Positions 12,616 through 62,496 of a DNA stretch of 64,000 nt are shown piece after piece. The notes under the pieces were generated by a model. It made no database searches. It was not told the DNA's origin and saw only the letters and a list, made by a program, of their open reading frames with translations. The number at the start of each line of letters is the position of its first letter. The stretch's first letter is position 1. The stretch comes from a virus. The position numbers were made by a program, and so were the translations under genes. The stretch lies in IMG/VR virus record IMGVR_UViG_3300046616_000314, positions 62,001-126,000 of that record; one strand, 5' to 3'.

Positions 12616-13313
12616 TCTACCATCTTGAACCCATCGGTGATTGGTCTACGGTAGCTGATGAAGATCGCTTTAGCGGTTTTCTAGACGGCGACCGCCGAGC
12701 ACTACATAATCCAAAGTGGCGCGGAAACGTGCGCGATGCTTTCCGTAATACATCGCACCAATACAATTTCTTTTTCCTTCAAGACGTAAAAGATCGTCGT
12801 TCAACGTACACGGCTAAATCTCTATTTGAAGTGAGTGATTACCTTCTTGACTATACATTCGATATGTCAGTACCAGACTCAATCAACGTGGTGTTCACGA
12901 ACAATTTCGGTACTGATCGCGTCGCAATGACACCCTGGATCATTGCTCATAGAACGTCGCACACAATCCACGAACACTTGGATGATGGCAAGGGTGTAGA
13001 ATACGTTCAAATATTACACGATATGTGTATTCATATCAAAAATATCAATAATTGCCATCATCGATTGAATAAAGACTTGCGCCAAGTCTTGAAATTCCGC
13101 AGCGCAAAGAAACAGCTTACGCGATATGGCGAATTGTTTCATGAAATATTCGCTCAATACTTGATACAAGGAAGCGTGACATTCATCAAACTCCCAAACA
13201 CCGTTCCTGATGCGGATGTAATCAATTCGATTACTAGAAAATATGCACCGAAGATCAATGCCTCTATCAAGAGACTATTAGATCAATCTGTTGGTAACAT
13301 TTATATTCTTTAG
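12612..13313 (+). CDS. Protein of unknown function, last gene of the plus-strand run
   Basis: 233 residues, ATGA-coupled, no tail motif. Contains TPWIIAHRTSHTIHEH and later YGELFHEIFAQYLIQG; such W-I-x-A-H-R-x-x-H and F-H-E-x-F-A-Q segments recur in uncharacterised proteins of large phages as I recall, but no reaction is known to me. Its end overlaps by 4 nt the convergent gene on the other strand. Confidence 0.8.
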   Translation: MIYHLEPIGDWSTVADEDRFSGFLDGDRRALHNPKWRGNVRDAFRNTSHQYNFFFLQDVKDRRSTYTAKSLFEVSDYLLDYTFDMSVPDSINVVFTNNFGTDRVAMTPWIIAHRTSHTIHEHLDDGKGVEYVQILHDMCIHIKNINNCHHRLNKDLRQVLKFRSAKKQLTRYGELFHEIFAQYLIQGSVTFIKLPNTVPDADVINSITRKYAPKINASIKRLLDQSVGNIYIL

Positions 13314-14200
13314 TAATAGCCGTCGTCTTCGCGAGGATCGAAGACGCCTGGAACATAGATGTCATCCAATGCCAGACGCTTGACCATTTTGACATTGTGC
13401 AGCAACGGTTCGCCATCGGCTCCATCGTCTTCTAGCTCTGTTCCCTGGACAAGGAAGATATCGCGCTTACCCTTAGCGGTAGCCGAGAACAAACCGTCCA
13501 TCGTTCCATTGAGCGTGTTTTCATTGATGCCGTCCCCGATTGCCCAACGTTGTTCTTCCATTTCCCAATCGGCATGATAGGCGGATACGCCCTTTTCCCA
13601 CACCGGATGACCTTCTTCGCGAGAGGCTAGGAAATTCTGTGAACGTTCATCATCGCGCCATAGACCGAAACGAACATAATATCTGCCTAGCATGTAGGCT
13701 TTGTTTTCAGGCGTGAACATTTGTTTGACATATCGTCTTGCCAAATCAAGTGCGCCAGGAAGCGGAATAGAGATCAGTTCGCCACGATATGTGCCGCCCG
13801 TGTCTACGATATTGCCATCTAGATCGAAGACAACGCGCAGATGATCAGGTTCAGCTTTTGAACCACGATTGGGGTGATATGAGATAGCCGGGACGTTGTA
13901 GATAGCAAAAGTGTTCTTGTGCTTGTCTAGGTATTTTTGGACGGTTACTTGCGTCCAGCTACGCCAGCCAAAATAAGCATAGAATGCAAGCCACTCAGGG
14001 TTTTGCATTACCTTGCCTTCAATGCGCTTTAAGTCTGCCCCAGAGGGTGGCCACGTCTCAGGGGTGAAATCGGGCTTGCCTTCGGCATCCATTTGCGAGG
14101 ATGTCTTGTAGTGGGGAGCTAAGTCCTGCCAATAAGAACGCCCAACGTCTGTCGGATGCTCGCGATAATACTTTTCTTCAAACAGTTCTGACAGGCGCAT
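13310..14200 (-). CDS. Late protein with MR-ELFE N-terminal signal
   Basis: 296 residues starting MRLSELFEEKYY, the N-terminal pattern (M-R-x-x-E-L-F-E) shared with six other genes in the window and resembling the capsid-targeting start of T4 internal proteins. A T4-late-like AATAAATA lies 4 nt upstream of ATG. The C-terminal part ends in a strand-rich region (LVQGTEL, VKRLALDDIYVPG). No ART triad could be assigned. Likely a late, possibly packaged, protein of unknown activity. Confidence 0.85.
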   Translation of the reverse strand: MRLSELFEEKYYREHPTDVGRSYWQDLAPHYKTSSQMDAEGKPDFTPETWPPSGADLKRIEGKVMQNPEWLAFYAYFGWRSWTQVTVQKYLDKHKNTFAIYNVPAISYHPNRGSKAEPDHLRVVFDLDGNIVDTGGTYRGELISIPLPGALDLARRYVKQMFTPENKAYMLGRYYVRFGLWRDDERSQNFLASREEGHPVWEKGVSAYHADWEMEEQRWAIGDGINENTLNGTMDGLFSATAKGKRDIFLVQGTELEDDGADGEPLLHNVKMVKRLALDDIYVPGVFDPREDDGYY

Positions 14201-14203
14201 CCA

Positions 14204-14497
14204 TTATTTATTATGGGCGTGGAAGCATCCGTTTGCGATGTTGAACATGACACATCCACCGATGAAACATAGGACACTGATGCCGATGAAAGAATCAACT
14301 CCCGTTGCATCATACAGAGTGAAACCAGCGACCAGAAGGAACGGTGACGTGATGAAAAGAATGGCGCCTGCGATCAGGGCGACGTAACCCGTGATGGCTT
14401 CGGATCGTGCGCGCTCGCGGATCATGATCAAGGATCGGTTAGCCAATCCATGCAACATTTTATTGAGAACATTGATGTTGTGGGAAACCATTTTCAT
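14204..14497 (-). CDS. Small membrane protein, two helices
   Basis: 97 residues with two predicted transmembrane segments (about 36-60 and 68-88) after a basic N-terminal region. ATGA-coupled to the gene at 14494. One of four membrane proteins in a row. Unknown function. Confidence 0.8.
   Translation of the reverse strand: MKMVSHNINVLNKMLHGLANRSLIMIRERARSEAITGYVALIAGAILFITSPFLLVAGFTLYDATGVDSFIGISVLCFIGGCVMFNIANGCFHAHNK
14205..14212 (-). promoter_or_regulatory. T4-late-type promoter element AATAAATA
   Basis: 7/8 match to TATAAATA, exactly 4 nt upstream of the ATG at 14200, and overlapping the stop codon of the upstream gene. The same spacing recurs at 44632, 54423, 56224 and 62252. Confidence 0.65.
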
Positions 14498-44631: not shown

Positions 44632-44639
44632 CATAAATA
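44632..44639 (+). promoter_or_regulatory. T4-late-type promoter element CATAAATA
   Basis: 7/8 match to TATAAATA, exactly 4 nt before ATG 44644. The only plus-strand case in this set. Confidence 0.65.
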
Positions 44640-44643
44640 ATCG

Positions 44644-46230
44644 ATGCGCTATCGTGACCTTCTCAAAGAATCTCCCCAGACTGGTTTTAAGCCCGGCTTT
44701 GAGCAATGGTTCGCGGGTTCTAAAGTCGTAGACAAATCCGGTCAGCCTTTGGTTTGCTATCACGGTACGTTCAGAGATTTTGCGGAATTCCAATATAACG
44801 ACAACGGTTGGGCGGGCTCTGGCTTCAATCGTCTAGGGTTCTGGTTCGATACCGATCCCAAGACCCCAGGCTGGCTTGCGGGCGACGAAGAGGGCTATGG
44901 CATCGGAGACGGTGGAAACATCAAGCCTTGCTATCTGTCGATCAAAAAACCTCTCGTCATGTCGGGTGACATGATCTGGAACGAGGACTTGGACGAGCTT
45001 CGTCAGCTTCGTAAAAATGTTTCAGCAACGTATGCGGCGCGGCGCGCAGCCAAGAACGGTGATTGGAACTTCGGACAATTAGACCTAACCTATCGCGATG
45101 CGTCGAGAGCATTTGACGCGGCTATGGAAAAGATGATGCAGAATGACGGTTGGACCCGGATCATGCGTCTTCTTCCGAACGGCATTAAGTCAACTACTGA
45201 GGAAGTCGCTGCGTTCCAGGCTGAATGCATCGCCGAAGGTTACGACGGTATTCATTTCGTGGATACGATGGCTGACTCAGGAACCCGTGACTATGCGCCT
45301 ACTGATTGGTGGTTGGCATTCCATCCAAATCAAATCAAGTCAGTCTTCGCTTCACAATTCAATCCACAGTCCACCAACATGAGCGAAGCTCAAGAGTTGG
45401 ATGAAATCATGGAAATCCCTGATTTTGACGATGACATCAACAATCAACGTCGTTCGCTGAATTGGGGAGAAAAAATTAAAGATTCCAAGAAAGTTGGAAA
45501 GATCGGACCCTATAATTTGGTCGTTCATCGCAGTGCTTGGGGTGATGAATATCTTTTGCTAGATAATCAGAAACACCCAATGGGCAAGGCGACTGTCTCA
45601 AAATATTCAGGTGGCTTCTATCGCGTCGGACACATTTGGTTTGATCCGACCGTCCGAGGCAAGGGCTACGGCTATTTGTTCTATCGTTTTCTGATCGACA
45701 AAGGCATGAAAGTCATCACTGACACCGATCAAACACGGTTCAGCCGAGGCGTGTGGTCTAAGCTGGCGCGCGAAGGTTTCGTGTATGAATATTTTGAAGA
45801 TGATACGCTAGGGTCCAAGGTTACGGACACCCAGGATTTCTACGGCAATCGTCTATCTAGATTGGCGGCTGTTAAGCCCGGCACGGTCAAAGAGAGTGCG
45901 CTTGTTGAGAAGACGATCTTCATTCCAGACTCATCGGGTATGAATTTCGTGGTAATGAAAAATCCGTCGAAGGCACAATATTTTAAATTGCTGCATCCCG
46001 ACTCAGACCTGAAGGGTTTGATTTCGGGCAAGGATTTCTATGTGTGGGCAGCATATCACGCTCACCATGGGCAGATTGCGCACGGGTTGGGTCTAGGCGA
46101 GGATGCGTATCGTATCTTTGTTCGATACAACGCGATCCTCGCTCATCCATCGTTGTTCCCGGCTATTCGAGATAATCCGCAGATGAAATATCTATATGGT
46201 CCGTCTGGACCGAATCTAGAAAGCGAGTAA
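44644..46230 (+). CDS. ADP-ribosyltransferase (PolyVal-type) fused to a GNAT-like acetyltransferase domain, late
   Basis: 528 residues starting MRYRDLLKES, a variant of the MR-ELFE signal. Residues about 25-240: ART fold with VVDKSGQPLVCYHGT (Tyr39-His40-Gly41-Thr42), LGFWFDTDP and the closing AFHPNQIKSVF, as in ART domains of phage polyvalent proteins; these move ADP-ribose from NAD to targets. Residues about 275-385: GNAT-like region with HIWFDPTVRGKGYGYLFYRF (acetyl-CoA loop R-G-x-G-x-G) and FSRGVWSKLAREGF. Residues about 415-528 unassigned. Probably an injected or virion-associated modifier of host proteins (inference from N-terminus and late promoter). Confidence 0.85.
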   Translation: MRYRDLLKESPQTGFKPGFEQWFAGSKVVDKSGQPLVCYHGTFRDFAEFQYNDNGWAGSGFNRLGFWFDTDPKTPGWLAGDEEGYGIGDGGNIKPCYLSIKKPLVMSGDMIWNEDLDELRQLRKNVSATYAARRAAKNGDWNFGQLDLTYRDASRAFDAAMEKMMQNDGWTRIMRLLPNGIKSTTEEVAAFQAECIAEGYDGIHFVDTMADSGTRDYAPTDWWLAFHPNQIKSVFASQFNPQSTNMSEAQELDEIMEIPDFDDDINNQRRSLNWGEKIKDSKKVGKIGPYNLVVHRSAWGDEYLLLDNQKHPMGKATVSKYSGGFYRVGHIWFDPTVRGKGYGYLFYRFLIDKGMKVITDTDQTRFSRGVWSKLAREGFVYEYFEDDTLGSKVTDTQDFYGNRLSRLAAVKPGTVKESALVEKTIFIPDSSGMNFVVMKNPSKAQYFKLLHPDSDLKGLISGKDFYVWAAYHAHHGQIAHGLGLGEDAYRIFVRYNAILAHPSLFPAIRDNPQMKYLYGPSGPNLESE

Positions 46231-46354: not shown

Positions 46355-46488
46355 TATCGTTTCACAAGCTTCCGCAGAGCTTTAAACAAGGCAGCAGCCT
46401 CGCCCTTTTCTCCATTGATTAGATAATCAATGGAATATGCCGTAGCAGTCATTACAACTGCTAAGAGAAGAATGGCAAGGAAAATCAT
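46354..46488 (-). CDS. Micro membrane protein
   Basis: 44 residues from ATG 46488 (ATGA). Hydrophobic N-terminus (about 2-20), then GEKGEAAALFKALRKLVKR, a short segment slightly like the tail motif. Fills the gap between its neighbours precisely. Confidence 0.68.
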   Translation of the reverse strand: MIFLAILLLAVVMTATAYSIDYLINGEKGEAAALFKALRKLVKR

Positions 46489-47174: not shown

Positions 47175-47389
47175 AGGAACAAAACCTTCAGACCATACAC
47201 CACCCATATCACATAGGCGGCGGTGACGAAAATCCAACTTCCGATAATTAATCGGGCTTGGCTGTAAAATTCATCGTTGTGAGGCTTTGGGAAGCCCTTC
47301 AGGAGGGTTCGGAGGCGGAATGAACCCACGAGTAGCCCAAGACCTAAAAGGGTCGTAGCGAGGATTAGAAAGCCTTGTAGGAGGATCAT
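47171..47389 (-). CDS. Small membrane protein
   Basis: 72 residues from ATG 47389 (ATGA); hydrophobic segments about 2-22 and 48-68. Unknown function. Confidence 0.75.
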   Translation of the reverse strand: MILLQGFLILATTLLGLGLLVGSFRLRTLLKGFPKPHNDEFYSQARLIIGSWIFVTAAYVIWVVYGLKVLFL

Positions 47390-47619
47390 GAGAACAGCGT
47401 CGCGATTCGATAGACCACTACGGCAACATAGACGAAATATATGAGCCATAGAGCAATGATCACACCGCCTATTAGGTGATCAAATGCTTTGTCATCCGCA
47501 CTTTTTTCCGCGCGAGGTTCACCATAGATGACACTCACCGCGAAACCGGTTAGTCGCGGCAACATGCTACCGATGCCTACCGCGATGACTGTAAGAACGA
47601 ATGCGAAAAAAACGTTCAT
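47386..47619 (-). CDS. Small membrane protein, two helices
   Basis: 77 residues from ATG 47619; hydrophobic segments about 2-20 and 50-70. Unknown function. Confidence 0.75.
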   Translation of the reverse strand: MNVFFAFVLTVIAVGIGSMLPRLTGFAVSVIYGEPRAEKSADDKAFDHLIGGVIIALWLIYFVYVAVVVYRIATLFS

Positions 47620-47620
47620 G

Positions 47621-47830
47621 TTAAATCCAAAAAGGCACGGATAGACAGACCCACCAACCGTACATGCCAATGACCATTGCCGTCAGGACAGCCGACGTGA
47701 TACGGAATTCCAGCTTGATCGGCTTCATGCGCCAAATCCGCACGGTTTGCGCGATGATGGCGACGACCGTCAGTCCAACCGCGATGGTGAACATAATCAT
47801 CCCAAGGACGAACCAAGGATCGTTCGGCAT
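47621..47830 (-). CDS. Small membrane protein, two helices
   Basis: 69 residues from ATG 47830; hydrophobic segments about 8-30 and 45-66. Third membrane protein in a row between two nuclease genes. Confidence 0.75.
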   Translation of the reverse strand: MPNDPWFVLGMIMFTIAVGLTVVAIIAQTVRIWRMKPIKLEFRITSAVLTAMVIGMYGWWVCLSVPFWI

Positions 47831-47831
47831 T

Positions 47832-48518
47832 TTAAGTCCCCTCATGAATCATTTTGAGGAAAACGTCAGCGGTGTATCGCGAATCGTTTCCCGCACAATG
47901 GAAATGGGTTGCGCCCACGTGATAGTAATGCGCCAAATCAACAAGCTTCAGCTTACGCCCAAAGCGAGCCTTACACAACTGCGCGGTGTCATAATAATAT
48001 GGGCGCGGCAAATCGTAGCCCGAGTCTCGTAAGGCATCCAAGTCAAAGTGGACGCTATGACCAACGAGGAAATCGGCGGTGTTGAAATGCGACAGCACCA
48101 GACGCTTCATTTGTGCTTCGGTGGCAACCACAATAGTCTCACCAAATTCAAAGGGGATGGTGCGCTTCTTGGTTTCGAGAGCGTAGTTGTACGTCTCAAT
48201 CGAATTGCCACGGAAGACAGTCACGCCGATTTCTTCGATCACGCCTTCAAGGGTGCGTTCCAGATCGAGTGACAGGAACCTCTTACCTTTGCGGAACTTG
48301 TCGAGCGCGATCCGGGTTGACCGCTCCCAAAATTCATCCTGGCGAGCGAAATACCTGCGATCCGAAATCTTTTTGATCTTGTCCTTGATGCGAGCGATCT
48401 TGGGCATTTCGCGATCATACCGAACGCTGGCTCGCATGTAGCCATACGGACCCTCGCGCAAAGCAATCAGCTTGCGCTCATGATCTTCAATGCGTTCGCG
48501 TAAAAGATTCAGGTCCAT
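47832..48518 (-). CDS. DEDDh-family 3'-5' exonuclease
   Basis: 228 residues. After a helical, basic N-terminal 75 residues come FLSLDLE (Asp85, Glu87), LVGHSVHFDLDALR (Asp159) and HFHCAGNDSRYT (His207, Asp212), the complete DEDDh active site. The N-terminal extension may bind DNA or RNA. The promoter at 48525 lies 6 nt before ATG, implying a leaderless mRNA. Confidence 0.83.
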   Translation of the reverse strand: MDLNLLRERIEDHERKLIALREGPYGYMRASVRYDREMPKIARIKDKIKKISDRRYFARQDEFWERSTRIALDKFRKGKRFLSLDLERTLEGVIEEIGVTVFRGNSIETYNYALETKKRTIPFEFGETIVVATEAQMKRLVLSHFNTADFLVGHSVHFDLDALRDSGYDLPRPYYYDTAQLCKARFGRKLKLVDLAHYYHVGATHFHCAGNDSRYTADVFLKMIHEGT

Positions 48519-49105
48519 TATTCAGCAATACCACGAAGACGTAGTTTGTCAAGAGAAACAGTATGAGTAATCTTGTTGCCCGACAATAGAGCTATGGCGA
48601 TTTCATCGTGTGTCTTGAAGAACAACCACTGACCAAAATTGTGAGCATCGGGGAATTTGGCGAAGAATTTTTTATCATCCGTGCTTCGCAGCATGTACTT
48701 GAATTCGGCATGGTCATCGCGGCTCTGCGTCAAATTGACATACGCAATACCCGCGAGCGCACCATAATTCATGGTGATTTTTTTATAGCGCGGAAGATTT
48801 TTTGTGCGACAGCCGGGGTGCGGATAGTAATGATAGAAGTCCCACTCAGAATTCTTTGCGTTCTGTTTGCTATCGCGCGCCAGGAGCATAGAGAACGCTG
48901 CATCGCGTGAATGGAAATTCGAAATGGGCTGATAGCCATTAGGCAAAATCACGCGCCATTTTTCATAATCAGGAAAGGTGTTATCGGCAAATACGATGCC
49001 GATGTATTCACCAGACCGGCGATACGTCAGATAGCGTGACCCGCCCAAATTTCTGAAACGAGGGTGATCTTTTTCGAATTTATATGGAGGAAATTCGATC
49101 CCCAT
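48518..49105 (-). CDS. Protein of unknown function, possible distant tail-family member
   Basis: 195 residues from ATG 49105 (TAATG). Tyr/Arg-rich. Near the end WLFFKTHDEIAIALLSGNKI has the strand, acidic turn and hydrophobic pattern of the tail with an extension, but no F-K-L-K. Confidence 0.77.
   Translation of the reverse strand: MGIEFPPYKFEKDHPRFRNLGGSRYLTYRRSGEYIGIVFADNTFPDYEKWRVILPNGYQPISNFHSRDAAFSMLLARDSKQNAKNSEWDFYHYYPHPGCRTKNLPRYKKITMNYGALAGIAYVNLTQSRDDHAEFKYMLRSTDDKKFFAKFPDAHNFGQWLFFKTHDEIAIALLSGNKITHTVSLDKLRLRGIAE
48525..48552 (-). promoter_or_regulatory. Promoter of the exonuclease gene, inside the upstream coding region
   Basis: TTGACA (48552-48547), 16 nt, TATTGC (48530-48525), then 6 nt and ATG. 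Located in the last codons of the gene at 48518-49105. Confidence 0.5.
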
Positions 49106-49518
49106 TAGTATCGGATCACCGTGCCGAAGGGAGGAACCACGTCCGCAGGCACGTCCATCAGAACAAACGTCGTCGGGCAATAATGCGGATCGGCGCCTTT
49201 GAAATCATAGGTATCGGTGAAGAACGTCAGTTGGTCGGGTTTGACTTCCACGTTCTTCAGGAAAGCCCACAGGCGACCTAGGCTCGTCCCGCCGCCACCG
49301 TGGCTCAAATCGTAAGACGTGATGCCTTCCACCGCCTGATGATGATCAAAGGTCTGGTAGTTGTGAACCACAGTGTCGAGCGAAAAAACGTGCAGCATGA
49401 ACGGCTCGCCTTGGGCGGTATATCGTTGGGCGACGCCCGTGGCGTGAGCCCTGAAAGCTTCCATGGTGTAAGGACCGACGCTACCCGAAGCGTCAAAGAC
49501 GATGGCGTAATGCTTCAT
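49105..49518 (-). CDS. Single-domain VWA-like protein
   Basis: 137 residues from ATG 49518 (ATG 49530 in frame). MIDAS: D9-A-S11-G-S13, then GGGGTSLGR and FFTDTYD supply the remaining metal contacts. VWA domains bind partners through a divalent metal; here it stands alone, without an AAA+ or protease partner nearby. Function unknown. Confidence 0.8.
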   Translation of the reverse strand: MKHYAIVFDASGSVGPYTMEAFRAHATGVAQRYTAQGEPFMLHVFSLDTVVHNYQTFDHHQAVEGITSYDLSHGGGGTSLGRLWAFLKNVEVKPDQLTFFTDTYDFKGADPHYCPTTFVLMDVPADVVPPFGTVIRY

Positions 49519-49550
49519 GACAAATCCCACATATATTAATCAATGTAGGC

Positions 49551-49578
49551 AGTATCGCTCATAATACTATTTTGTCAA
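49551..49578 (-). promoter_or_regulatory. Possible promoter of the VWA-like gene
   Basis: TTGACA (49578-49573), 16 nt, GATACT (49556-49551), about 33 nt before ATG 49518. Confidence 0.5.
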
Positions 49579-49580
49579 GC

Positions 49581-49892
49581 TTAGACTCGGAGTTTAAATT
49601 CGACCATGCTTTCATCGTCGGGAAACACCACGATTATATGAGATTGTGTCTTCTCAAAATCATAATGATGCCATAGTTCGAATAGATCAGCGGTATTAAG
49701 CTTGTTGTAGACATCAATCATTTTGGATTGTTGTTCAGCGCATTCAGTCGTGCCCTTGTGGACAAACTTGAAAATTCGAGAAGGAAATTCGAATATTCGG
49801 CAGCGTTGGGCGGGCTCGATATACCGGAGCCCCCAATGCATAGCGCCCATGGCAGGCTTAGCCTTTGTGAAATCCATCGGGGGAAATATCAT
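49581..49892 (-). CDS. FKLK-tail family protein
   Basis: 103 residues; tail FPDDESMVEFKLRV, ending one residue short of the usual aromatic. ATGA-coupled upstream. Confidence 0.83.
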   Translation of the reverse strand: MIFPPMDFTKAKPAMGAMHWGLRYIEPAQRCRIFEFPSRIFKFVHKGTTECAEQQSKMIDVYNKLNTADLFELWHHYDFEKTQSHIIVVFPDDESMVEFKLRV

Positions 49893-50425
49893 TCGATTCC
49901 CCGAAGATCGCGAAATTCAATTAGTTTTTCGCCCAGGATCAATCGGGCGATCACCACGTCATCTTCGGTCTTCAACAGACTGATGTTGTCACGGGTGAAA
50001 ATGTTTTCGATCTTTGCCAGCTTAGAGCGGACGGTGATCGGATGGCGAATCAGAAAATGAAATTCTCTCCAATCCTTTCGAGAACGGGTCAGAGACCGAA
50101 ACGTGGAGACCGAACTGTGTCCAGATTTGGTGGCGAGATATTCGATTATCGGTCCCGTGCCAGGAGTATCATTATCCGAAACGTGGTGCCGGATCATAAT
50201 CCCAGGATGGATGGCGGCATTTGTGACCTGAATAGCCGCATCAAACTGTCGAGACTCACACCAATTGGCGACAGTGCCATCAAGTGACACCATTCGCCAA
50301 TTGTACGGTGCGGCTCTGGTAGTGTCTTTGTAGACCCATCCAACGACGGCGTAGCCCTCACACGTGGTCCAATTATGGACTTCATATTTCTTGGGGTTGG
50401 ACCCTTTGACGGGAACAATCATCAT
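49889..50425 (-). CDS. Protein with extended, diverged tail
   Basis: 178 residues from ATG 50425 (TAATG). Near the end LLKTEDDVVIARLILGEKLI then FRDLRGIE, similar in layout to the extended tail subtype of the upstream gene (KDDDDALMMIKLKCGDVG ... IDLRPMYS). Confidence 0.78.
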   Translation of the reverse strand: MMIVPVKGSNPKKYEVHNWTTCEGYAVVGWVYKDTTRAAPYNWRMVSLDGTVANWCESRQFDAAIQVTNAAIHPGIMIRHHVSDNDTPGTGPIIEYLATKSGHSSVSTFRSLTRSRKDWREFHFLIRHPITVRSKLAKIENIFTRDNISLLKTEDDVVIARLILGEKLIEFRDLRGIE

Positions 50426-50787
50426 TAGGAATACATCGGACGCAGATCGATGATGCGCCGAATGCCGACATCGCCGCACTTCAGCTTGATCATCATCAGA
50501 GCATCATCATCGTCCTTGACGAACGTGAAGTTGCTGAACGAGATAGTGTTTTCGACCTTCTCGACCTTCTTCTTGGTGCCGTTCTTACGTTGTACCATAT
50601 AGGCGTAATCCTTGAAGTCGTTGGGACGCATTTCAAAGAACTGCGCGAAAGCGATGCCGCAGTAATCATCAATCGCGTCCAGGGAATCCAAGATATGTTG
50701 GACAGGATCGAAATATCCATTGATCACGTCCAGGCGACGTTGCGTTTCATCGAGCGGAATATTCAAGATGATTTTGATATACGACAT
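50425..50787 (-). CDS. FKLK-tail family protein, extended subtype
   Basis: 120 residues from ATG 50787 (ATG 50793 in frame). Tail KDDDDALMMIKLKCGDVGIR then a short strand. First gene after the promoter at 50817. Confidence 0.8.
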   Translation of the reverse strand: MSYIKIILNIPLDETQRRLDVINGYFDPVQHILDSLDAIDDYCGIAFAQFFEMRPNDFKDYAYMVQRKNGTKKKVEKVENTISFSNFTFVKDDDDALMMIKLKCGDVGIRRIIDLRPMYS

Positions 50788-50816: not shown

Positions 50817-50844
50817 AATGTACCACGGTCTTAGGCGTTGTCAA
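50817..50844 (-). promoter_or_regulatory. Promoter of the operon starting at 50787
   Basis: TTGACA (50844-50839), 16 nt, TACATT (50822-50817), GG before the -10. The -35 overlaps the stop codon of the large upstream gene. Confidence 0.65.
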
Positions 50845-52529
50845 TAGTCCAAGAAATCATCAAGCGTCTTCGTATATACGGTTGGACCAAATGCACTAAC
50901 CTTGTCGAGTATTGGAACAAGACCCGCAAAGTCGGCTCTCTTATAATTGCCAGCTTCCAAGCATGATCTGATCAACAAATCAAATTTGTCTCTTGAGAAA
51001 CCTTGCTTAGCACCCTCAATAATCAATGCATAAAGGAATTGCAACGATCTATCGCCAAAGAATCGACGCGCATGACTATGTGCTTGTGACCAAAAGCCAA
51101 TTAACTCTTTGGGATCGGTACAAGCCGTCATGACGGTAGATTGGTGATTATATAGCAGATACTTGAAATATTCGGGATTTTCGCGCACATACTTCACAGG
51201 ATCGATTGTTCTATTCCACCAAATACTTAACAGGTGTGCTCGTTGACCGGGCTCAAGGAAATCGGCAGCCAATATCTTAGCCATCAATTCTTGAGTCATA
51301 TGGAAATCTCGTTTACCGAGTTGGTACACGGTGTCATCGGCATTGTCCTTCAACTGTTGAAGATATTCTTCATCAGTGAACGGAATCAAATTGTACGGAT
51401 AAGCCCAGGCGAAATATTTTTCCTTGATTTCGTCCTGAATAGATACGGGAAGAATACCCCAACCGAGTGTTGTAAAAATGCTCACGTGAGAGCCTTCTAG
51501 AACATCGCGGACCAACTTAAGTTCTTCTGGTGTAAATTTACCGCCTTGTTGATATCGCTTGGTAAGAAATTTCTTTAGGGCAAGCGGATTGTCAATATAC
51601 ATATCAACAGGTGTCGGAGTACGATCAACAAGGCGCCGATTACGGATGACATCTACCTCGCGCAAGCCTTTCTTAGAGAAAAACAGTGCTTGAACAGGTT
51701 CATTGGTGTGGATGATACCTTCACCCTCGACATCAACGCAACCATCGTAGCCTAACTGCATGAACAGTTTCGACCAACGAGTTGTCAGCTTGATACCATA
51801 TTCGCGGCGTTGAGCACGAATCGCATCAACAACATTTTCTTTACCGAAACTCAGCAATTCTTTCCAGATCGGTGAGTCCATTGTAGTTTTGTGGACCGCG
51901 TTGTAAGTTGCAATTTTATCGTCAAGGTCTTCTAGACTCTTGACTTGATTGAAATTCAACGGATACCAATATTTGTTAACATACATTTGAATTGGCGTAG
52001 CGTGTGCCATTTGAAAATCATCCGTGTCACTTGCTAGTTCACGTGTGATATTCCAAATCATACCACCAGCCGATTTATTAGTCGCTGAATTTTTCGCTTT
52101 TTCTACGATATGCTTGAATCGAAATTCATAATTTTCATTCTTGACGATAATATCGTGTAGCTTACGAACGTCTTCGTCCATTTGTCTCTCTGTATAAAGA
52201 GAGAAATCAATCATGTTCCCGGTTGCCTGAACAACGTACATATAGGCACGATCTTTGGCGAACGGAACATTGCCTTGTGCCATAAGAACGTAATCAACGG
52301 GATAGACATAGATACCCAGAGGCGTACCGTAGCTATAAGTCGGATTGATACCGATCTTTGTGCCTTTTGTATGGGGAGATTTGTTTCTCACCATCCCTTG
52401 ATCCATGCTGTCAACGAACGAGACAAACATAGTCGGATCATTCGCATATTGCTTCAGTTCTTCAAGGCTATCGATTTTTTTGTTGATATGGGCGTTACGA
52501 CGCTTTTCAAACAATTCAAAAGCGCGCAT
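50841..52529 (-). CDS. Large late paralogue with ART-like signature (1 of 4)
   Basis: 562 residues starting MRAFELFEKRRN. Conserved blocks shared with genes at 52529, 54429 and 59918: FVSF, KIGINPTYSYGTPLGIYVYP (58-77), Y-x-Y-V-x-x-x-G-N-x-x-D, TRWSKLF-x-x-LGYDG, and GIIHTNEPVQALFFSKKG around residues 268-285. The H/Y - G-I-Y - E order resembles ADP-ribosyltransferase folds, with the NEP Glu as candidate catalytic residue (inference). The C-terminal half (about 300-562) is a helical repeat-like region that differs among paralogues. Start overlaps the upstream paralogue's stop (TAATG). Likely packaged effector. Confidence 0.8.
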   Translation of the reverse strand: MRAFELFEKRRNAHINKKIDSLEELKQYANDPTMFVSFVDSMDQGMVRNKSPHTKGTKIGINPTYSYGTPLGIYVYPVDYVLMAQGNVPFAKDRAYMYVVQATGNMIDFSLYTERQMDEDVRKLHDIIVKNENYEFRFKHIVEKAKNSATNKSAGGMIWNITRELASDTDDFQMAHATPIQMYVNKYWYPLNFNQVKSLEDLDDKIATYNAVHKTTMDSPIWKELLSFGKENVVDAIRAQRREYGIKLTTRWSKLFMQLGYDGCVDVEGEGIIHTNEPVQALFFSKKGLREVDVIRNRRLVDRTPTPVDMYIDNPLALKKFLTKRYQQGGKFTPEELKLVRDVLEGSHVSIFTTLGWGILPVSIQDEIKEKYFAWAYPYNLIPFTDEEYLQQLKDNADDTVYQLGKRDFHMTQELMAKILAADFLEPGQRAHLLSIWWNRTIDPVKYVRENPEYFKYLLYNHQSTVMTACTDPKELIGFWSQAHSHARRFFGDRSLQFLYALIIEGAKQGFSRDKFDLLIRSCLEAGNYKRADFAGLVPILDKVSAFGPTVYTKTLDDFLDY

Positions 52530-54418
52530 TAGAATACTCCCTCATCATCGTCGGCTTCAGCCCGATCAGTTTCAAACTTGAGCATTTCCATCACGTTGTT
52601 GAGACCAAGCTTTTCAGCACGATCATAGACGGTTGCCCAATACTTGTTCAGACCTTCCATGCGGTCGGACTGACGAATTTCAGGATGAGTGCGAGCCATT
52701 TCTTCATTGATCAAATGAATCAAGTTTGAAATCTGACCCTGTTGGCAATCATTTGCGTATAACAACAGAGAACCCATCCAAGCGGGAGTACGATCAGCCA
52801 AGCTAACAATGTCGTATACATTGCGTTTGACGAATTGGTAATACTTCATGAAGTCTTGAGGCGTGCGGCGTTGACGCAGGAATGCCATAAGAATCGGTTG
52901 GCTAATCTTATAAATGTTGCCATTGAACAGCCCCGGTTTGCTTCCAATGAAATCAAAGATCATCTTCTGGTGATTGACGATGCCCTGATTGACAATCCCG
53001 GCGATAAGATCAGCCGAGGCGCGGGCATCGTTCACGACTGCCTCAAAGACATGCGGGCGACGTAGAATAGCTCTATAAAAACCCTTGGCGTGTCCACTGA
53101 AGTAATGTGGATCGAAGTTTTGCTGATAGTTCAAAACCTGATTGACCATTTGTTTATCTGTGAAGTCAATCGCATCCAACGGGAAACCAATTCGTTCCCA
53201 GTGTTCGCGAACATAGGACTTCACTTCAGCAGGGAACATCGGATAGATGTCGGCAAATACTTCATTGTCATGATTATAGCCGATGACTTCGGTCATCATC
53301 TTGATTTCGTCGGGAGTATACTCGCCCTTGTGCTTATGAATCCATGCCTTGAACAGCTTAGGCTTTTCAATGAAAATCGTAGTCTGACCTTTTGGCTTCT
53401 CGTGCTGGACGTTGTTGAGGACTTCCAATTCTTGGATACCAGCCTTGGAGAAGAACACGGCTTGAGTGGGTTCATTCTCGTGAATAATTCCCTTACCTTG
53501 TAGGTCAGATGCTCCCGAATAGCCAAGGTCACGGAATAGTTTAGACCAATTGGCGATGCCCTTGGTGGATTGGATGCGCCGGAATTCTTCGACCGCAGCC
53601 AATACTTGTTCCGGTGTAGCCTTATTCAGAGCGTCTACAGCACCTTTGAAGTTTACTTCAAGCAACTCACGAATGGTCATCGGCGTTTTTTCAGTCGCCA
53701 CGGATGATTGTCGGTTGAATGCTGCTTTATATTTTTCAACGTCTTCGGCTGTCTTGAGCGTAGAAGAATGAGGAATTAGCTTACGATCATTCGGCGGAAT
53801 ACCGGTTTCAAAATCAGCACTCTTCCATGTCGCCGAAATCAGCATATTCATAGGCGAACGCTGATTGTACATGCCATGGCGCCGCCCTGACAACAGGCGA
53901 GTCAAATTCCAAATCTTCCCACCAGGGGTTCTAGATGTTGAAGTAGAATCAGCAAGTAATTGCATTTCTTGAAATTGCGTATCGCTCATGAGGTTCATGG
54001 CTCGCAACTTTGCGGCATCCTTGTCGTAGTCTTCTTGCGAATACGTGTGTAAGTCCAACACATTACCGCGCGCCTTGACGACATACAGGTATGGGCGTTT
54101 CGCAGCGAAAGGAACGTCGTTGACAAATTTCTTCAAAACGTAATCGACCGGATAGCAGTAGATACCCACCGGGGTATTGTAATTGGTCTTCGGGTTGATG
54201 CCGATCTTAGAGCCGCGTTGGTTCGCCAGTGTTCCCTTGGAACGAATACCGCCAAACGTTTCGTCACCGATGCTGCGAAGAGAGTGCGCGCCGACATCAT
54301 GCGTGAACGAAACGTACACGTCGGGATGACCTTCATATTTTCGCAAGGCATCGATAGCGGAAACCTTGGGATTCAGGTCTGGATTTCGACGTTTCTCGAA
54401 TAGTTCAAATGCGCGCAT
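52529..54418 (-). CDS. Large late paralogue with ART-like signature (2 of 4)
   Basis: 629 residues, the longest of the set; starts MRAFELFEKRRNPDLNPK. Carries KIGINPKTNYNTPVGIYCYP, YVVKARGNVLDL, NWSKLFRDLGYSG and GIIHENEPTQAVFFSKAG. Nearest relative is the downstream gene (identical first 12 residues), so the two are a tandem duplication. A late element lies 4 nt before ATG. C-terminal region helical, unassigned. Confidence 0.82.
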   Translation of the reverse strand: MRAFELFEKRRNPDLNPKVSAIDALRKYEGHPDVYVSFTHDVGAHSLRSIGDETFGGIRSKGTLANQRGSKIGINPKTNYNTPVGIYCYPVDYVLKKFVNDVPFAAKRPYLYVVKARGNVLDLHTYSQEDYDKDAAKLRAMNLMSDTQFQEMQLLADSTSTSRTPGGKIWNLTRLLSGRRHGMYNQRSPMNMLISATWKSADFETGIPPNDRKLIPHSSTLKTAEDVEKYKAAFNRQSSVATEKTPMTIRELLEVNFKGAVDALNKATPEQVLAAVEEFRRIQSTKGIANWSKLFRDLGYSGASDLQGKGIIHENEPTQAVFFSKAGIQELEVLNNVQHEKPKGQTTIFIEKPKLFKAWIHKHKGEYTPDEIKMMTEVIGYNHDNEVFADIYPMFPAEVKSYVREHWERIGFPLDAIDFTDKQMVNQVLNYQQNFDPHYFSGHAKGFYRAILRRPHVFEAVVNDARASADLIAGIVNQGIVNHQKMIFDFIGSKPGLFNGNIYKISQPILMAFLRQRRTPQDFMKYYQFVKRNVYDIVSLADRTPAWMGSLLLYANDCQQGQISNLIHLINEEMARTHPEIRQSDRMEGLNKYWATVYDRAEKLGLNNVMEMLKFETDRAEADDDEGVF

Positions 54419-54422
54419 GACT

Positions 54423-54430
54423 TATTTATT
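54423..54430 (-). promoter_or_regulatory. T4-late-type promoter element AATAAATA
   Basis: 7/8 match to TATAAATA, 4 nt before ATG 54418, overlapping the stop codon of the upstream paralogue. Confidence 0.65.
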
Positions 54431-56219
54431 AGTCCATTTTATGCGCGTCACCGTAAACTTGCGTCACCGGATTTGCTTGATGAATTGCTCGCTTGATCTC
54501 ATCTACATACTTGGGAGCATGAGCCGTAGTCCATGCAAGCAAATTGTTCCACCATGCGCCTTCGTCAGTCGGATGATATGAGAATGCGGGTTCCGAACTG
54601 CGAAGCATATTGGTAACGAGTTGGTCATAGCCTTTGCTCATAGCATATTGAAGACAGCCCATAAGGAAAGTTGGTCCCTTGGCAGATATACCGCTGGAAA
54701 CTAGGGCTCGTTCGACCATTTTACCGATTTCGACAAAGGTTTCCGGGTCTTCAATTCGGCGCATTCCCACTGTTTGAGCAAATGGTGACATTTTGGAGAA
54801 TTCTTCTTTATTATTCTTTATGAACTGATTGACGGCTTCGGTATTTTTAACAATTGACGCCAGTTCGTAGAATACTAAGCTCTTATTACCAGCCGACATA
54901 TAATTTTTGTTCTTTGATTGCATCAAATACAAGAACGTTTCAGGCGTAATGACAAACTTGTCAATTTTGTTGAGAAGGCTTGGGTTACGCATGACCTGAT
55001 AAGCAATCTCGTGTTGCGTCAAGCCAGGAACACATTTGGGATCGAACACACCCTCATACCAGCGAACACGAATATCCTTGCGAATTGATTCGGGAAGCAG
55101 GTTCCAATTGATTACGCGAATAGCTTCTGGGTTCTCCCAAATGAAACTATTAATCAGGTTAACTTCTTCTTCGTTGAATGGCTTGCGGCTATGCTTCTCT
55201 AGATATTTGGCGAACTTCAAATAATCGTAGTACCATTCGGTATCAACGCGATACGGCTTGTGCGAATAGGTGATGTTGTGGATAGTCTCGACTTCACTGA
55301 AGCTTTTCTTATTGAAGAACAACGCTTGTGTGGGTTCGTTCTGGTGAATGATACCATCACCATTATCGATCAGACCATCATAGCCTAGACCTTGGAAAAC
55401 TTTGGACCATCGGGTTGTTGGTTTAGAACCCGAAATGGCACGGAACTTATTCGCGATCTCCGCAAACTCTTCTGGTGACGTGTTTTCGAATTGATCGTAC
55501 ATGCCATTTTGACGAAGGCTGTCACGGAAATTTGTGAGCAACGCTTTCTTCAACGCAACGCCAGTACGATCAGCGATTACTTCCTTATAAGACCACGGTG
55601 AATTCAAATAAATCTTGGCGATGAATTCGTGTAGGCCATCGGTGTATCGCAAATGTTGTGCTTCGAAGGTAGGAAACTCGCGGCAGATGTTGAAGAAATA
55701 TCCGCCAGGAGATTGCACTTTGGCTTCGTAACTGGCTCGATTTACAAACTCTTTCCAGTCATCGTCATCAACGTCTGGAACGTCGGCTTGCAATGCGGCG
55801 CAATCGTTCTCTAAATCATCTTGAGAATACTTTTGTAGATCAAGCATGTTGCCCGTAGAGCGAATGACCTGAATGTATGGACGGTCGGCAGCATAGGGAA
55901 CATCCGGTTCACCGCTGCTTCGATCAAGTACGTAAGAAATTGGGTAGGCGTAGATACCTAGAGGCGTGCCGTGGTCATATTTCGGATTGATGCCGATCTT
56001 GGAGCCGCGCGAGTTATGGCTTTTGCCTTTGGCGTTGATGCCCGTTCCGGTGTTGTACGGTTCAGCGGCAACGTCAGGATTGGATTTCGTACCAACATCA
56101 TCGGTGAAACTGACGTAAACGTCATCGCGACCCTTGTACTTCTTTAAGGAGTCCAGGGCAGAAACCTTGGGGTTCTGTTCGGGATTACGTCGGGCTTCAA
56201 GGATTTCGTATGCGCGCAT
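54429..56219 (-). CDS. Large late paralogue with ART-like signature (3 of 4)
   Basis: 596 residues starting MRAYEILEARRNPEQNPK. Blocks: VYVSFTDDVG, KIGINPKYDHGTPLGIYAYP, VIRSTGNMLDL, TRWSKVFQGLGYDG, GIIHQNEPTQALFFNKKS. C-terminal half is helical with several Leu/Ile-rich repeats, unassigned. Own late element at 56224. Confidence 0.82.
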   Translation of the reverse strand: MRAYEILEARRNPEQNPKVSALDSLKKYKGRDDVYVSFTDDVGTKSNPDVAAEPYNTGTGINAKGKSHNSRGSKIGINPKYDHGTPLGIYAYPISYVLDRSSGEPDVPYAADRPYIQVIRSTGNMLDLQKYSQDDLENDCAALQADVPDVDDDDWKEFVNRASYEAKVQSPGGYFFNICREFPTFEAQHLRYTDGLHEFIAKIYLNSPWSYKEVIADRTGVALKKALLTNFRDSLRQNGMYDQFENTSPEEFAEIANKFRAISGSKPTTRWSKVFQGLGYDGLIDNGDGIIHQNEPTQALFFNKKSFSEVETIHNITYSHKPYRVDTEWYYDYLKFAKYLEKHSRKPFNEEEVNLINSFIWENPEAIRVINWNLLPESIRKDIRVRWYEGVFDPKCVPGLTQHEIAYQVMRNPSLLNKIDKFVITPETFLYLMQSKNKNYMSAGNKSLVFYELASIVKNTEAVNQFIKNNKEEFSKMSPFAQTVGMRRIEDPETFVEIGKMVERALVSSGISAKGPTFLMGCLQYAMSKGYDQLVTNMLRSSEPAFSYHPTDEGAWWNNLLAWTTAHAPKYVDEIKRAIHQANPVTQVYGDAHKMD

Positions 56220-56223: not shown

Positions 56224-56231
56224 TATTTATT
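56224..56231 (-). promoter_or_regulatory. T4-late-type promoter element AATAAATA
   Basis: 7/8 match to TATAAATA, 4 nt before ATG 56219; the four bases are AAGG, which could also serve as a minimal ribosome site. Confidence 0.65.
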
Positions 56232-58545: not shown

Positions 58546-59925
58546 TCAATATTTTCGTTTTTGGAGCAACGCCGAATAATTGACCGGATGGCGCACTAGT
58601 TCTTTTTCCAATTCGCTAACGAATTTTTTGATCGCCAGCTTCCAACGCTTCGGGGCATTGTCTTTCAGCGCACTAAAGAAACTACTAGTGAAACCAACGT
58701 GACCCTTCTCGGCTTCCGTCAATCCAACGAACACATTGATAGCATCCCGCAAGGTCGGAGGGGCAGGAAGATAAACGCTGTATTTTTTAATCATTTCCAA
58801 CAGATCATAGAAGTCAGCGATTGCCGAAATAATTTGCGGATCGAATTCAACCGGAGAGGTCAAATAAGGTTCCGCAACACTTCCGTCCGTAGGATGTTTC
58901 TTCTTTTGATCGGGATGGCGCAACACGTTGTATTGGATCATGTGTTGCATTTCATGATGCAAGGTTTTCTTGATACGATCCAATGCAATTTCCAACTCAC
59001 CTAACTTCGCTCCGTTAGGATAATTCTTTAGCGCACCGTTGGTTGGCTGAATGACAATAGAATTCATATCAGGATAATATGCAGCCATGGTCGTTTCGTT
59101 TTCGGGTTTCCACTGCATACCGATGAAGAAATAGCCTTTCCGCACTGGGGCTAGTTTCTGATAGCTTAGAGGTAAGTCTGTAATATCAAATGTGAATGTT
59201 TTGAGATCAAATTTCTCTGGATAATCTTCTTTCGGAATTCTGACGCCATGTTTCTTACATACGTCTTGGAATTCCTGCCACAGAGCCGCATTCTCTTTGG
59301 TCTGGAACATCGGTGTCAGGTCGCGCCATTGATCCCGAGCGTGCCACAAAATCTGTGTGACGACCCAATGATAAGCGAGGACCATAGCAAGAGGCGGGAC
59401 AGCGATCACGCCTTCCATTAGCACGTTGGTATGGGCTTCCAAAGCTTCGGTGAACGTCGCAGCATTTTTAAATTTTTCAAAATGGGGATCGTAGGTAACG
59501 GTTGCCTCGATTTCGTGGCGCCCTGCCAGGATTTGAAGACAGATGCGGTGATGCCCTTCCATGACCCAGTACATACCGTTGGGTAGGGCGACCAATTCAG
59601 GAAGCGGAGCGGTATCCCAATGACTTAGAACTTTTTGGAGATTTTTCAGCCCAACACCGTTTTGATCTTGCGTAACGAGCTTTTCAACCGGAATGAGTTG
59701 GGTCTTGTGGGTTTGGGTTACGATTTCCTCATAGGGAGCCTTACCCATGAGCACCTTCAAATACTCTGGGTTCATGTCTTTCTCGTCGTGGTTCAAACCG
59801 AATGAAGAGAAAGGAATGTCAATATCTTCCCAATTTTTGGTTTCGCGATTGGAATGTGTTTGTGCAAAGAAACGCAGTAACTTAAGCAGGTTCTTTTGTT
59901 CGTCTGAAGTGAAAGGCTTAAGCAT
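58546..59925 (-). CDS. ParB-like domain fused to a zinc metallopeptidase-like domain
   Basis: 459 residues. Around 75-150: VEKLVTQDQNGVGLKNLQ then MYWVMEGHHRICLQILAG (GHHR at 124-127), the ParB/sulfiredoxin nucleotide-binding-fold signature. Residues 320-332: TLHHEMQHMIQYN with HEMQH (324-328), an HExxH zinc site, matching the metallopeptidase modules of phage polyvalent proteins. It lies in the late effector operon, overlapping the ART-like gene upstream by 8 nt, and lacks the MR-ELFE start. Possible roles: prohead or effector processing, or a co-injected protease acting on host proteins. Both are inference. Confidence 0.75.
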   Translation of the reverse strand: MLKPFTSDEQKNLLKLLRFFAQTHSNRETKNWEDIDIPFSSFGLNHDEKDMNPEYLKVLMGKAPYEEIVTQTHKTQLIPVEKLVTQDQNGVGLKNLQKVLSHWDTAPLPELVALPNGMYWVMEGHHRICLQILAGRHEIEATVTYDPHFEKFKNAATFTEALEAHTNVLMEGVIAVPPLAMVLAYHWVVTQILWHARDQWRDLTPMFQTKENAALWQEFQDVCKKHGVRIPKEDYPEKFDLKTFTFDITDLPLSYQKLAPVRKGYFFIGMQWKPENETTMAAYYPDMNSIVIQPTNGALKNYPNGAKLGELEIALDRIKKTLHHEMQHMIQYNVLRHPDQKKKHPTDGSVAEPYLTSPVEFDPQIISAIADFYDLLEMIKKYSVYLPAPPTLRDAINVFVGLTEAEKGHVGFTSSFFSALKDNAPKRWKLAIKKFVSELEKELVRHPVNYSALLQKRKY

Positions 59926-61510
59926 CTTCGGTACCTGTCAATCCATAACGAGAAAGTTGTAATATCTGTTCGGCACGTTCGTCTTTGCCATAGGTGAGAC
60001 GGAGGACACCTAAAACTTTAGAGCGAATTTGCGCACTACGAGAACTAATATGAGCGTATTCAGTGAGAATATCATTGAAATACGCCAGAGTAATGTAATC
60101 ATGCTTATCGATGATCACTGAAGCAACTGACCGGAGCCAACTATACTCATCGTCTCGCAATAGTAATTCGCGAGCAAATAGTTCTGGAATAGTATTGCTA
60201 TGAATAAAACTATGAAGCATTTGCGCATACTCGCGCGGATTCGTGATATTCGAGATAGCACGGGTTTTGACAACATTCGGGAAGAATCGAATGAATGTCG
60301 AATGATCCTTCAGAAATTTTAACGAATCAAATTCGAAATCGGCTCCACATTCAACCGCGAGTGTTTTAAATCTGCCCGTCTTCTGACTATTGTCCAGCAC
60401 TTCTTTTGCAAATGTATCGAGTAATTGCACGTATTGTTGGCGTGTAATAAGCGGTTTCATGAAACGGGTCATGATCCAAGGTTCTTCAGCCACGGCGGCG
60501 AAGATTTCTTCTGGTGATACGTTAGGTAGGTAATACGGATAGATGACGTTGACTGCCCACGAATCTTTCAACCACTGTTGAATAATGGTCGGCACGTTTT
60601 TCCAATTGAATTGGAGGTTGTCTAGGAATGTATCATCGGAACGGAAATCACCAATGTAATCCATGATCTGAGTGTTCTCAGTCTCATTGGTATTACCTTT
60701 ACGATTATTAAGAAACTTGAAGAATGAATTTTGGTTCTTCAACCAGATGTCATATAGCGATGGGGTTCTTTTGGGAGCGGGTGTGTTGTGAATGACTTCG
60801 ACAACCCGGAAGGATTTTTTACTAAAGAACAACGCTTGGTTGGGCTCGTTTTTGTGAATGATCCCATAGCCAGGATCAACCAGACCGGCGTATCCAAGTT
60901 GACTGAAGATACGTGACCACCGAGTTGTCATCTTGGCTTGTACGGCAGATTTTTCCGCTGTTTTCTTATCGAGTGCAAACATGCGAGTGATGTTGAACAT
61001 CTTACCCGCCCACGTGTCTGTAGAAGCGTTATATTCGCCATCATCGATAATGTGTTCATCGTCATAACCGAGAGCCTTCAGCTTCTCGATATCTTCGTTC
61101 ATGTCGCGTTCTGTATACAGTTCAAAATCCAGCATCTTGCCGGTTGGTTCCAGAACGTAAATGTATGGACGCTCGCCAGCGAAAGGAACTTTCACTTCTA
61201 CAGCAGAAGAATTTTTCAAGACATAATTGACGGGGTAGGCGTAGATACCCAAAGGCGTACCATAACCGTATGTAGGGTTGATCCCAATCTTAGGTCCGCG
61301 AGCATTGTGGACATGACCTTTGGCTCTTACGCCATCTTCGGTCTTTTTAACTTTTTGATTGCCTGCATTGTTGGCAGATAGAACGCCGACATCGGCAGTG
61401 AACGATAGAAACACGTCTTTGTCTGTGTACTTGCGCAGTTGTTTCATAACCGGAGCCTTCTGATTTTGTTCAGGATTCCGGCGGGCTTCGATCAGTTCAT
61501 GAAAACGCAT
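59918..61510 (-). CDS. Large late paralogue with ART-like signature (4 of 4)
   Basis: 530 residues from ATG 61510, giving MRFHELIEARRNPEQNQK and a TAATG overlap with the upstream ART gene; a longer in-frame start at 61591 would hide this conserved N-terminus. Blocks: FLSFTADVG, KIGINPTYGYGTPLGIYAYP, YVLEPTGKMLDF, TRWSRIFSQLGYAG, GIIHKNEPNQALFFSKKS. C-terminal half helical and unassigned. Confidence 0.82.
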   Translation of the reverse strand: MRFHELIEARRNPEQNQKAPVMKQLRKYTDKDVFLSFTADVGVLSANNAGNQKVKKTEDGVRAKGHVHNARGPKIGINPTYGYGTPLGIYAYPVNYVLKNSSAVEVKVPFAGERPYIYVLEPTGKMLDFELYTERDMNEDIEKLKALGYDDEHIIDDGEYNASTDTWAGKMFNITRMFALDKKTAEKSAVQAKMTTRWSRIFSQLGYAGLVDPGYGIIHKNEPNQALFFSKKSFRVVEVIHNTPAPKRTPSLYDIWLKNQNSFFKFLNNRKGNTNETENTQIMDYIGDFRSDDTFLDNLQFNWKNVPTIIQQWLKDSWAVNVIYPYYLPNVSPEEIFAAVAEEPWIMTRFMKPLITRQQYVQLLDTFAKEVLDNSQKTGRFKTLAVECGADFEFDSLKFLKDHSTFIRFFPNVVKTRAISNITNPREYAQMLHSFIHSNTIPELFARELLLRDDEYSWLRSVASVIIDKHDYITLAYFNDILTEYAHISSRSAQIRSKVLGVLRLTYGKDERAEQILQLSRYGLTGTEDA

Positions 61511-62247
61511 TAAATTTTCTCCGCAACGGAGAAGAAATTGCTTCCATCTTTTTTGAGTAATTTCAGATCGGTCTTGAGCATACGCCAGCATTCGGAAGGA
61601 TGGATCGTCCCCGCATGGGCGACGTGCATACCACGGTTGATCGCTTCGATCTTCAAATGATCGGGCATCTTCTTCAGCACACGTTTGCCGCCTTGAGCGA
61701 AGTAAGCGTACTCGCCATCAAGAACACGTTTGCGTTGATTTTCGGTCATGCTCCAACCGATGTAATCGTACAGTTGTCTACCGGCATAATCTGATTGCGG
61801 CAGAGAACATTTATAACCAACGGTGACGGGATGCCCATAGCGACCCATTTGTGTGATGGGCTCAGAATTGTGGCTATAAAATTCACCGATGGAATCTTCG
61901 TCAGGCTGCACGTCTACGAGATCGGCGCCTTTGATAACGAACACATATCCATAAGGATCGGTTCGCATATCGTCTTTGAAATCGCCAGCGGCTTCTTGCA
62001 TGGCATGAGTAAAATTGCCACCAAGGGCATACATGATGGCGTATGCGATATCGGATGTAATATAGACGCGCCCGGCAACAGGAGCAAGCATACCCTTGCC
62101 TTGGGTCTCGCGACCTTTCAGACCTTCGGTAGCAACGACATTGGCTGCACGAGTCGATGACGTGCCGTGATAGTACGTTTTTGCACGAACGTTATCGTCC
62201 GGTGCAGCCTCGTCAATTTCGGTACCAAATAATTCGTGAAAACGCAT
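61510..62247 (-). CDS. ADP-ribosyltransferase-like protein, late
   Basis: 245 residues starting MRFHELFGTE. YYHGTSSTRAANVVATEGL (25-43) and GRVYITSDIAYAIMYA (59-74) are the first two ART core elements (H-G-T and the S/Y strand); YGYVFVIKGADLVDV is a later core strand and GEFYSHNSEPI may hold the catalytic Glu. Heads the operon with the large paralogue and the ParB-peptidase gene. Perfect TATAAATA 4 nt before ATG. Confidence 0.8.
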   Translation of the reverse strand: MRFHELFGTEIDEAAPDDNVRAKTYYHGTSSTRAANVVATEGLKGRETQGKGMLAPVAGRVYITSDIAYAIMYALGGNFTHAMQEAAGDFKDDMRTDPYGYVFVIKGADLVDVQPDEDSIGEFYSHNSEPITQMGRYGHPVTVGYKCSLPQSDYAGRQLYDYIGWSMTENQRKRVLDGEYAYFAQGGKRVLKKMPDHLKIEAINRGMHVAHAGTIHPSECWRMLKTDLKLLKKDGSNFFSVAEKI

Positions 62248-62250
62248 CCA

Positions 62251-62496
62251 TTATTTATAGTGGAGTGCGAACGCCTCGTTAGCTAATCGTTTGGCTTCGA
62301 CCATAGCATCTTCTTTGAGCAAGAACGTTTCGCCTACTGCATGTCTAGTCTCAGGCGAATGGATAACGTACGTGCGATTGCTCAGTTCAAGGACATCGAA
62401 ACGAATACGAACATCGTCGTATTGTTCATCATTCTCGCGGTCGATTTCATCGGGGAAGACGTGCCAGTGATCGGCAATGGTATTGGGCGGAATCAT
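62251..62496 (-). CDS. Small protein of unknown function
   Basis: 81 residues from ATG 62496 (ATGA). Acidic first half, then strand-helix (TFLLKEDAMVEAKRLANEAF). Its last codons encode the late promoter of the next gene. Confidence 0.76.
   Translation of the reverse strand: MIPPNTIADHWHVFPDEIDRENDEQYDDVRIRFDVLELSNRTYVIHSPETRHAVGETFLLKEDAMVEAKRLANEAFALHYK
62252..62259 (-). promoter_or_regulatory. T4-late promoter element TATAAATA (exact)
   Basis: 8/8 match to the T4 late consensus, 4 nt before ATG 62247 and overlapping the stop codon of the upstream gene. Confidence 0.75.

Follow-up and report, generated by a model that had tools for sequence, protein, structure and literature searches.

Seven tagged genes and their products

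The window analysed here, 64,000 nucleotides long, spans positions 62001-126000 in a virus record of 561,116 bases (IMG/VR IMGVR_UViG_3300046616_000314) from a T4-like phage. Seven of its genes had been predicted to share an N-terminal signal resembling the capsid-targeting sequence (CTS) of T4, and all seven N-termini read from the sequence as claimed; the T4 sequences given in that prediction also proved correct when compared with T4. Only 44644..46230 lies on the plus strand. The other six are read from the minus strand, and their starts accordingly fall at the high coordinates 14200, 52529, 54418, 56219, 61510 and 62247. With a slash marking the candidate cut, the product of 13310..14200 (296 aa) begins MRLSELFE/EKYY and has no recognised cargo domain, and that of 44644..46230 (528 aa) begins MRYRDLLKE/S, which resembles T4 gp24 (MAKINELLRE/S). 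The genes 50841..52529 (562 aa), 52529..54418 (629 aa), 54429..56219 (596 aa) and 59918..61510 (530 aa) belong to one ART-like family, their products starting MRAFELFE/KRRN in the former two, MRAYEILE/ARRN in the third and MRFHELIE/ARRN in the last. The tag of 61510..62247 (245 aa) is atypical, MRFHELFG-TEIDE/AA, with G in place of E and a second site, IDE/A, at residue 13. Two starts overlap an upstream stop codon (TAATG), namely that of 50841..52529 and that of 59918..61510, for which we used the ATG at 61510 and not the longer ORF start at 61591. Between tagged ART-like genes lies an untagged one (58546-59925) whose product has a stretch, MEGHHR, that is ParB-like and a motif, HEMQH, that resembles those of metallopeptidases.

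The original prediction had also assigned late-type promoter elements to five of these genes, and TAAATA-N4-ATG is indeed found at starts 14200, 44644, 54418, 56219 and 62247. The elements occupy 14205..14210 on the minus strand and 44634..44639 on the plus strand, each 4 nt 5' of its ATG, and 54423..54428, 56224..56229 and 62252..62257, all on the minus strand. The remaining genes, 50841..52529 and 59918..61510, have no TAAATA of their own and are coupled 3' of tagged genes.

A further claim, that six of the seven carry ART or ART-like signatures, survives in part. It stands for 44644..46230, whose product matches ART-PolyVal in Pfam (PF18760, 3e-19; 70.6 bits against a cut-off of 31.2) and continues into a GNAT-like middle (below cut-off) and a C-terminal part without known family. 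For the family at 50841, 52529, 54429 and 59918 it stands at the level of an ART-like fold: these proteins gave no Pfam ART match and no match in a sequence search of PDB structures, and a model of the first 250 residues of the 59918..61510 product (pLDDT 84.6) retrieved ART-PolyVal-like and PARP-annotated phage proteins in Foldseek with probabilities of 0.94-1.00, but with TM-scores of 0.26-0.48. Because these TM-scores are modest, we call the family ART-like and do not file it among the ADP-ribosyltransferases. In the PDB, the top Foldseek match of the same model was a cyanophage A4 pre-ejectosome chain (5.9e-4), and an anti-CRISPR protein matched weakly. The claim does not hold to the same degree for 61510..62247, which has a YHGT motif suggestive of an ART and no Pfam match; a single-sequence structure of this product (pLDDT 31) was meaningless. 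No relatives were found in viral contigs for the products of 13310..14200, 44644..46230 and the gene at genome position 205913. Individual support is weaker for 61510..62247 and 13310..14200.

The tag, the late-type promoter and the head module across the genome

When all six frames of the window are read, the pattern M[RK]xxE[LI]xE turns up five times among the long ORFs, every time at a gene start. A search of the whole record at the DNA level, using the strict motif M-R-x-x-E-[LI]-x-E, returned eight matches, also at gene starts, and none in a reversed control; the three strict-motif genes outside the window encode ART-like homologues at 52785 and 184714 and the anti-CBASS protein Acb1 at 155115. 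The tag usually comprises 8-9 residues with M-R at the start, within a shared N-terminus of 8 to about 16 residues, and ends in [LI]-x-E (the E is missing in 61510..62247), as do the T4 gp21 cleavage sites. Since nearly every tagged gene has TAAATA standing 4-6 nt 5' of its ATG, the genome could also be searched from the promoter, using TAAATA-N(3-7)-ATG, a pattern blind to protein sequence. This gave 69 sites in the whole record versus 17 in the control, and about 26 of the ORFs that follow start with a tag, for example MRDLMDLLNE, MRYSEIINE, MREFMKIVES and MLLTDLFEA. Four further tagged genes lie 3' of tagged genes (starts 52529 and 61510 in the window, 300854 and 293578 in the genome). The seven-gene set originally proposed is therefore too small, the whole record having about 30 tagged genes. 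These genome-wide counts come from pattern searches, and stretches of the genome were examined gene by gene.

By a simple definition, a gene was counted as tagged if its product has two hydrophobic residues followed by E in roughly the first 13 positions. Outside the window, 20 of the 34 genes with the promoter were tagged in this sense as opposed to 12 of 223 others (p = 5e-13), an approximate figure because the stretches were picked around promoter or tag matches and genes were called by ORF length. The same definition applied to T4 picked out 7 of 10 gp21-processed head proteins versus 10 of 115 other proteins; this loose definition has a background of 5-9%. The T4-like TAAATA element is common to tagged genes and virion genes, and most of the structural genes that it precedes are without the tag. 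Its position only 4-6 nt from the ATG suggests that the mRNAs of many late genes, structural ones included, may be leaderless.

The cargoes behind the tag are unrelated to one another and include several ART types, Acb1, a SprT-like protein and other proteins without a recognised family. The ART-like family occupies 8-10 regions of the genome, and profile matches identify another ART-PolyVal at 293578, a SprT-like protein at 278905 and, below cut-off, an ART-PolyVal at 547053. One 642-aa protein has the sequence LTE/ARRNPEQN between its two domains, a possible internal cut site. The tagged Acb1 (genome 155115-156191) is preceded by a late-type promoter and matches PF23474 (129 bits against 27) and the Acb1 structure 7t26 (2e-7); it has the HVT motifs expected of 2H phosphoesterases (HxT) and an extra C-terminal domain, which is likewise present at the C-terminus of an ART-like protein from phage LR756501 (735 kb). 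The nearest phage relatives of this Acb1 are domains of portal proteins, some of them under prohead-protease annotations, which would fit a head location reached by another route; packaging of 2H phosphoesterases through fusion to portal or MuF had been predicted earlier (PMC9503650). A second tagged Acb1 occurs in a 578-kb contig. Elsewhere in the genome, at 491353-493155, the first part of a tagged protein holds three candidate cut sites in succession, MKNFRDLMNAIE/GKAVLTE/NKAVLTE/A.

A search for a gp21-like prohead protease had been proposed as a check on the original prediction, and the genome does encode one, of the Peptidase_S77 family (PF03420, 5.5e-27; phrog_207, 8e-61). It sits in a head module with the order portal, acidic core protein, protease, scaffold and major capsid protein, the core and scaffold roles being assigned from position, and this is the order seen in T4 (20-67-68-21-22-23). 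The capsid protein matches T4 gp23 (5e-40), and the alignment places LME/S opposite the T4 capsid cut FLTE/A.

Conservation of the tag in other phages

The ART-like family is represented by 76 loci in viral contigs. Of these, 44 members were aligned, their starts being set in part with the help of promoter and ribosome-site cues. All but three (41 of 44) have the tag glutamate, with L or I at -2 in 37 of the 41 and A directly after it in 24 of them. The distance from the initial Met to this glutamate varies from 8 to 16 and the [LI]xE is kept. One homologue, in a 214-kb contig, begins MIRFKEFIAEAR, compared with MKTYQEFIAEAR in T4 IPII, and thus nearly equals the proven IPII/IPIII signal of T4. 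In 15 other contigs the motif was matched 39 times versus 3 in the control, the carriers being ART, GNAT and Acb1 proteins together with proteins without an assigned family; one non-ART family has kept the tag, followed by a conserved AP[LI]AD, and is present in two or more additional contigs. A gp21-like protease match was found in 0 of 5 contigs with tag-less copies and in 8 of the 10 contigs longer than 150 kb that were tagged or unclassified, a co-occurrence that is suggestive only, since few of the lineages are independent. Several tagged contigs gave no gp21-like protease match; these contigs may be fragments.

Judged by the capsid protein, the closest phages in culture are Sinorhizobium phage Phosso (81% identity) and Agrobacterium phage Atu_ph07 (67.5%). 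In Atu_ph07, eleven tandem tagged genes, gp53-gp63 (39484-50592), are annotated only as hypothetical proteins and start MKWNDLNE, MRWEQLNE, MRWEQLTE, MKWHQLTE, MRWHQLIE, MRLFQLLE and similar. Eight of them are divergent paralogues at 17-38% identity in which M1, W3, Q5, L6 and E8 are invariant and which have YRG, RxxS and E motifs like those of R-S-E ARTs and no Pfam match; gp53 has a zeta-toxin-type kinase domain. The cluster lies inside the CDS 31-76 block, from which 29 products, a count for the block as a whole, were detected in virions by mass spectrometry (PMC6102473); the numbering was confirmed via gp70, the primase/helicase. The TAAATA promoter pattern is not enriched in Atu_ph07, so that the tag and the promoter are separable. 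No comparable tag set was found in Phosso, or in the roughly 67 kb that were examined of the 378-kb Pectobacterium phage CBB, for which a list of virion proteins has been published.

A predicted set of head-packaged effectors

Given these properties, we consider it likely, with a probability of roughly 80%, that the shared N-terminus is a T4-type capsid-targeting propeptide carried by an unusually large set of injected effectors. The reading of the tagged genes as a head-packaged effector set, as originally put forward, draws its support at the sequence level from the tag and its [LI]xE end, the unrelated cargoes behind it, the association with T4-like late promoters, the conservation in distant homologues and the gp21-like protease in its T4-ordered head module. 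The homologue close to T4 IPII, the position of the Atu_ph07 cluster in a block rich in virion proteins and the portal-borne relatives of Acb1 also speak for it. Weighing against it are the background of the loose tag definition, the G in place of E in 61510..62247, the lack of a comparable set in Phosso, the tagged contigs (perhaps fragments) in which no protease was matched, and the modest structural matches behind the ART fold of the main family. Because the tag looks like the label that sends proteins to the T4 head, this phage is likely to package and inject a large, ready-made set of host-takeover proteins.

Three other explanations of the shared N-terminus were weighed. The N-termini might be alike only because the genes arose by duplication within a single family and were spread along with its promoter, the tag being no signal at all; indeed, one family, with 8-10 regions in the genome, accounts for four of the seven genes in the window. 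Nevertheless, the tag precedes domains as unrelated as Acb1, SprT-like and ART-PolyVal, among others, the residues of the tags agree while their codons differ, and across the family [LI]xE is kept despite the variable distance from Met to glutamate; the five tag residues that are invariant among Atu_ph07 paralogues of such low identity point the same way. We therefore reject common descent as a highly improbable account. The least probable of all, and also rejected, is that the conserved start reflects the late promoter or leaderless translation initiation instead of a protein signal. Although a TAAATA so close to most tagged starts leaves no room for the usual ribosome-binding site, structural genes with the same promoter mostly do without the tag, the promoter-less downstream genes (starts 52529 and 61510 in the window, 300854 and 293578 in the genome) keep it, the Atu_ph07 cluster has it with no enrichment of the promoter pattern, and its synonymous codons vary.

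Alternatively, the tag may address proteins to the tail, the membrane or an intracellular compartment, or may serve another protease. The mass spectrometry of the Atu_ph07 block would leave room for this, as it does not place the products within the particle, but the tag ends in [LI]xE as T4 prohead protease sites do, the start of one homologue is almost that of a proven T4 head signal, the nearest Acb1 relatives are fused to portals, and gp21-like protease matches occur in most of the large tagged or unclassified contigs and in none of the five tag-less ones, albeit among few independent lineages. We thus regard a destination other than the head, or another protease, as highly improbable.

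According to the capsid-targeting interpretation, the tagged proteins would be recruited by their tag, late in infection, to the scaffold core as the prohead grows, and the prohead protease would then cleave after the tag glutamate. The trimmed cargoes would be retained when the head matures and would reach the next host along with the DNA. There the ADP-ribosyltransferases and other enzymes may modify host proteins, and the tagged Acb1 may break down the signal nucleotides of CBASS ahead of all phage gene expression.

The closest precedents are in T4 itself. The internal proteins of T-even phages are diverse defence proteins that have only the CTS in common (PMC3012670), and in T4 IPIII the N-terminal 10 residues are enough to direct packaging (PMC9026906). 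Like IPI-IPIII with their gp21-cut CTS, the proteins described here combine a short N-terminal propeptide ending in [LI]xE with diverse cargoes and a gp21-like protease, and their promoters predict the late expression known for IPI-IPIII (PMC9026906, PMC3012670). Unlike in T4, the predicted cargoes number about 30 instead of 3-4 and are large enzymes, and their packaging is predicted. T4 Alt, a head-packaged ART that starts MELITELFDED and is cut at ITE-6 and LTE-619 (PMC5694885), has a very similar N-terminus, one of our tagged genes starting MLITELFEAR; the predicted ARTs here, however, are ART-PolyVal or members of a separate ART-like family and come in many copies, the Atu_ph07 copies being Alt-like in their R-S-E-like motifs. 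The start of T4 gp2, the DNA-end protector (gene 2), MAIFQIINE/STPQ, is also very like the tags seen here.

More distant parallels exist. ARTs and 2H phosphoesterases are likewise predicted to be packaged and injected among polyvalent proteins and other head-packaged phage ARTs (PMC5512222, PMC9503650), but those earlier predictions were drawn from fused domains and neighbouring genes, whereas here each protein has its own predicted address tag. In phage P1, the N-terminal signal of DarB sends a reporter into the head and the cargo is antirestriction (PMC9024508), yet the Dar N-termini showed no consensus and the P1 head module is not T4-like in order. The ejection proteins of SPN3US and phiKZ are many head proteins processed by the prohead protease and ejected (PMC5694885), but their propeptides mostly exceed 100 residues and share no common short tag. 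What we describe is thus a much enlarged, new version of an already known T4-type signal.

Beyond a few model phages, the proteins that are injected with phage DNA are mostly not known, and virion proteomics is normally needed to find them. A sequence tag that marks the cargo would make the injected set predictable and testable, including in metagenomic phages. On balance, it seems probable that huge T4-like phages load dozens of effectors, among them an anti-CBASS phosphodiesterase and more than 10 ADP-ribosyltransferases, into the head by means of one transferable tag, that this arsenal acts before phage genes are expressed, and that the tag alone predicts the injected set. The tag further suggests that an anti-CBASS enzyme and numerous ADP-ribosyltransferases arrive in the host preformed, which bears on how such phages may beat the defences encountered in the first moments of infection.
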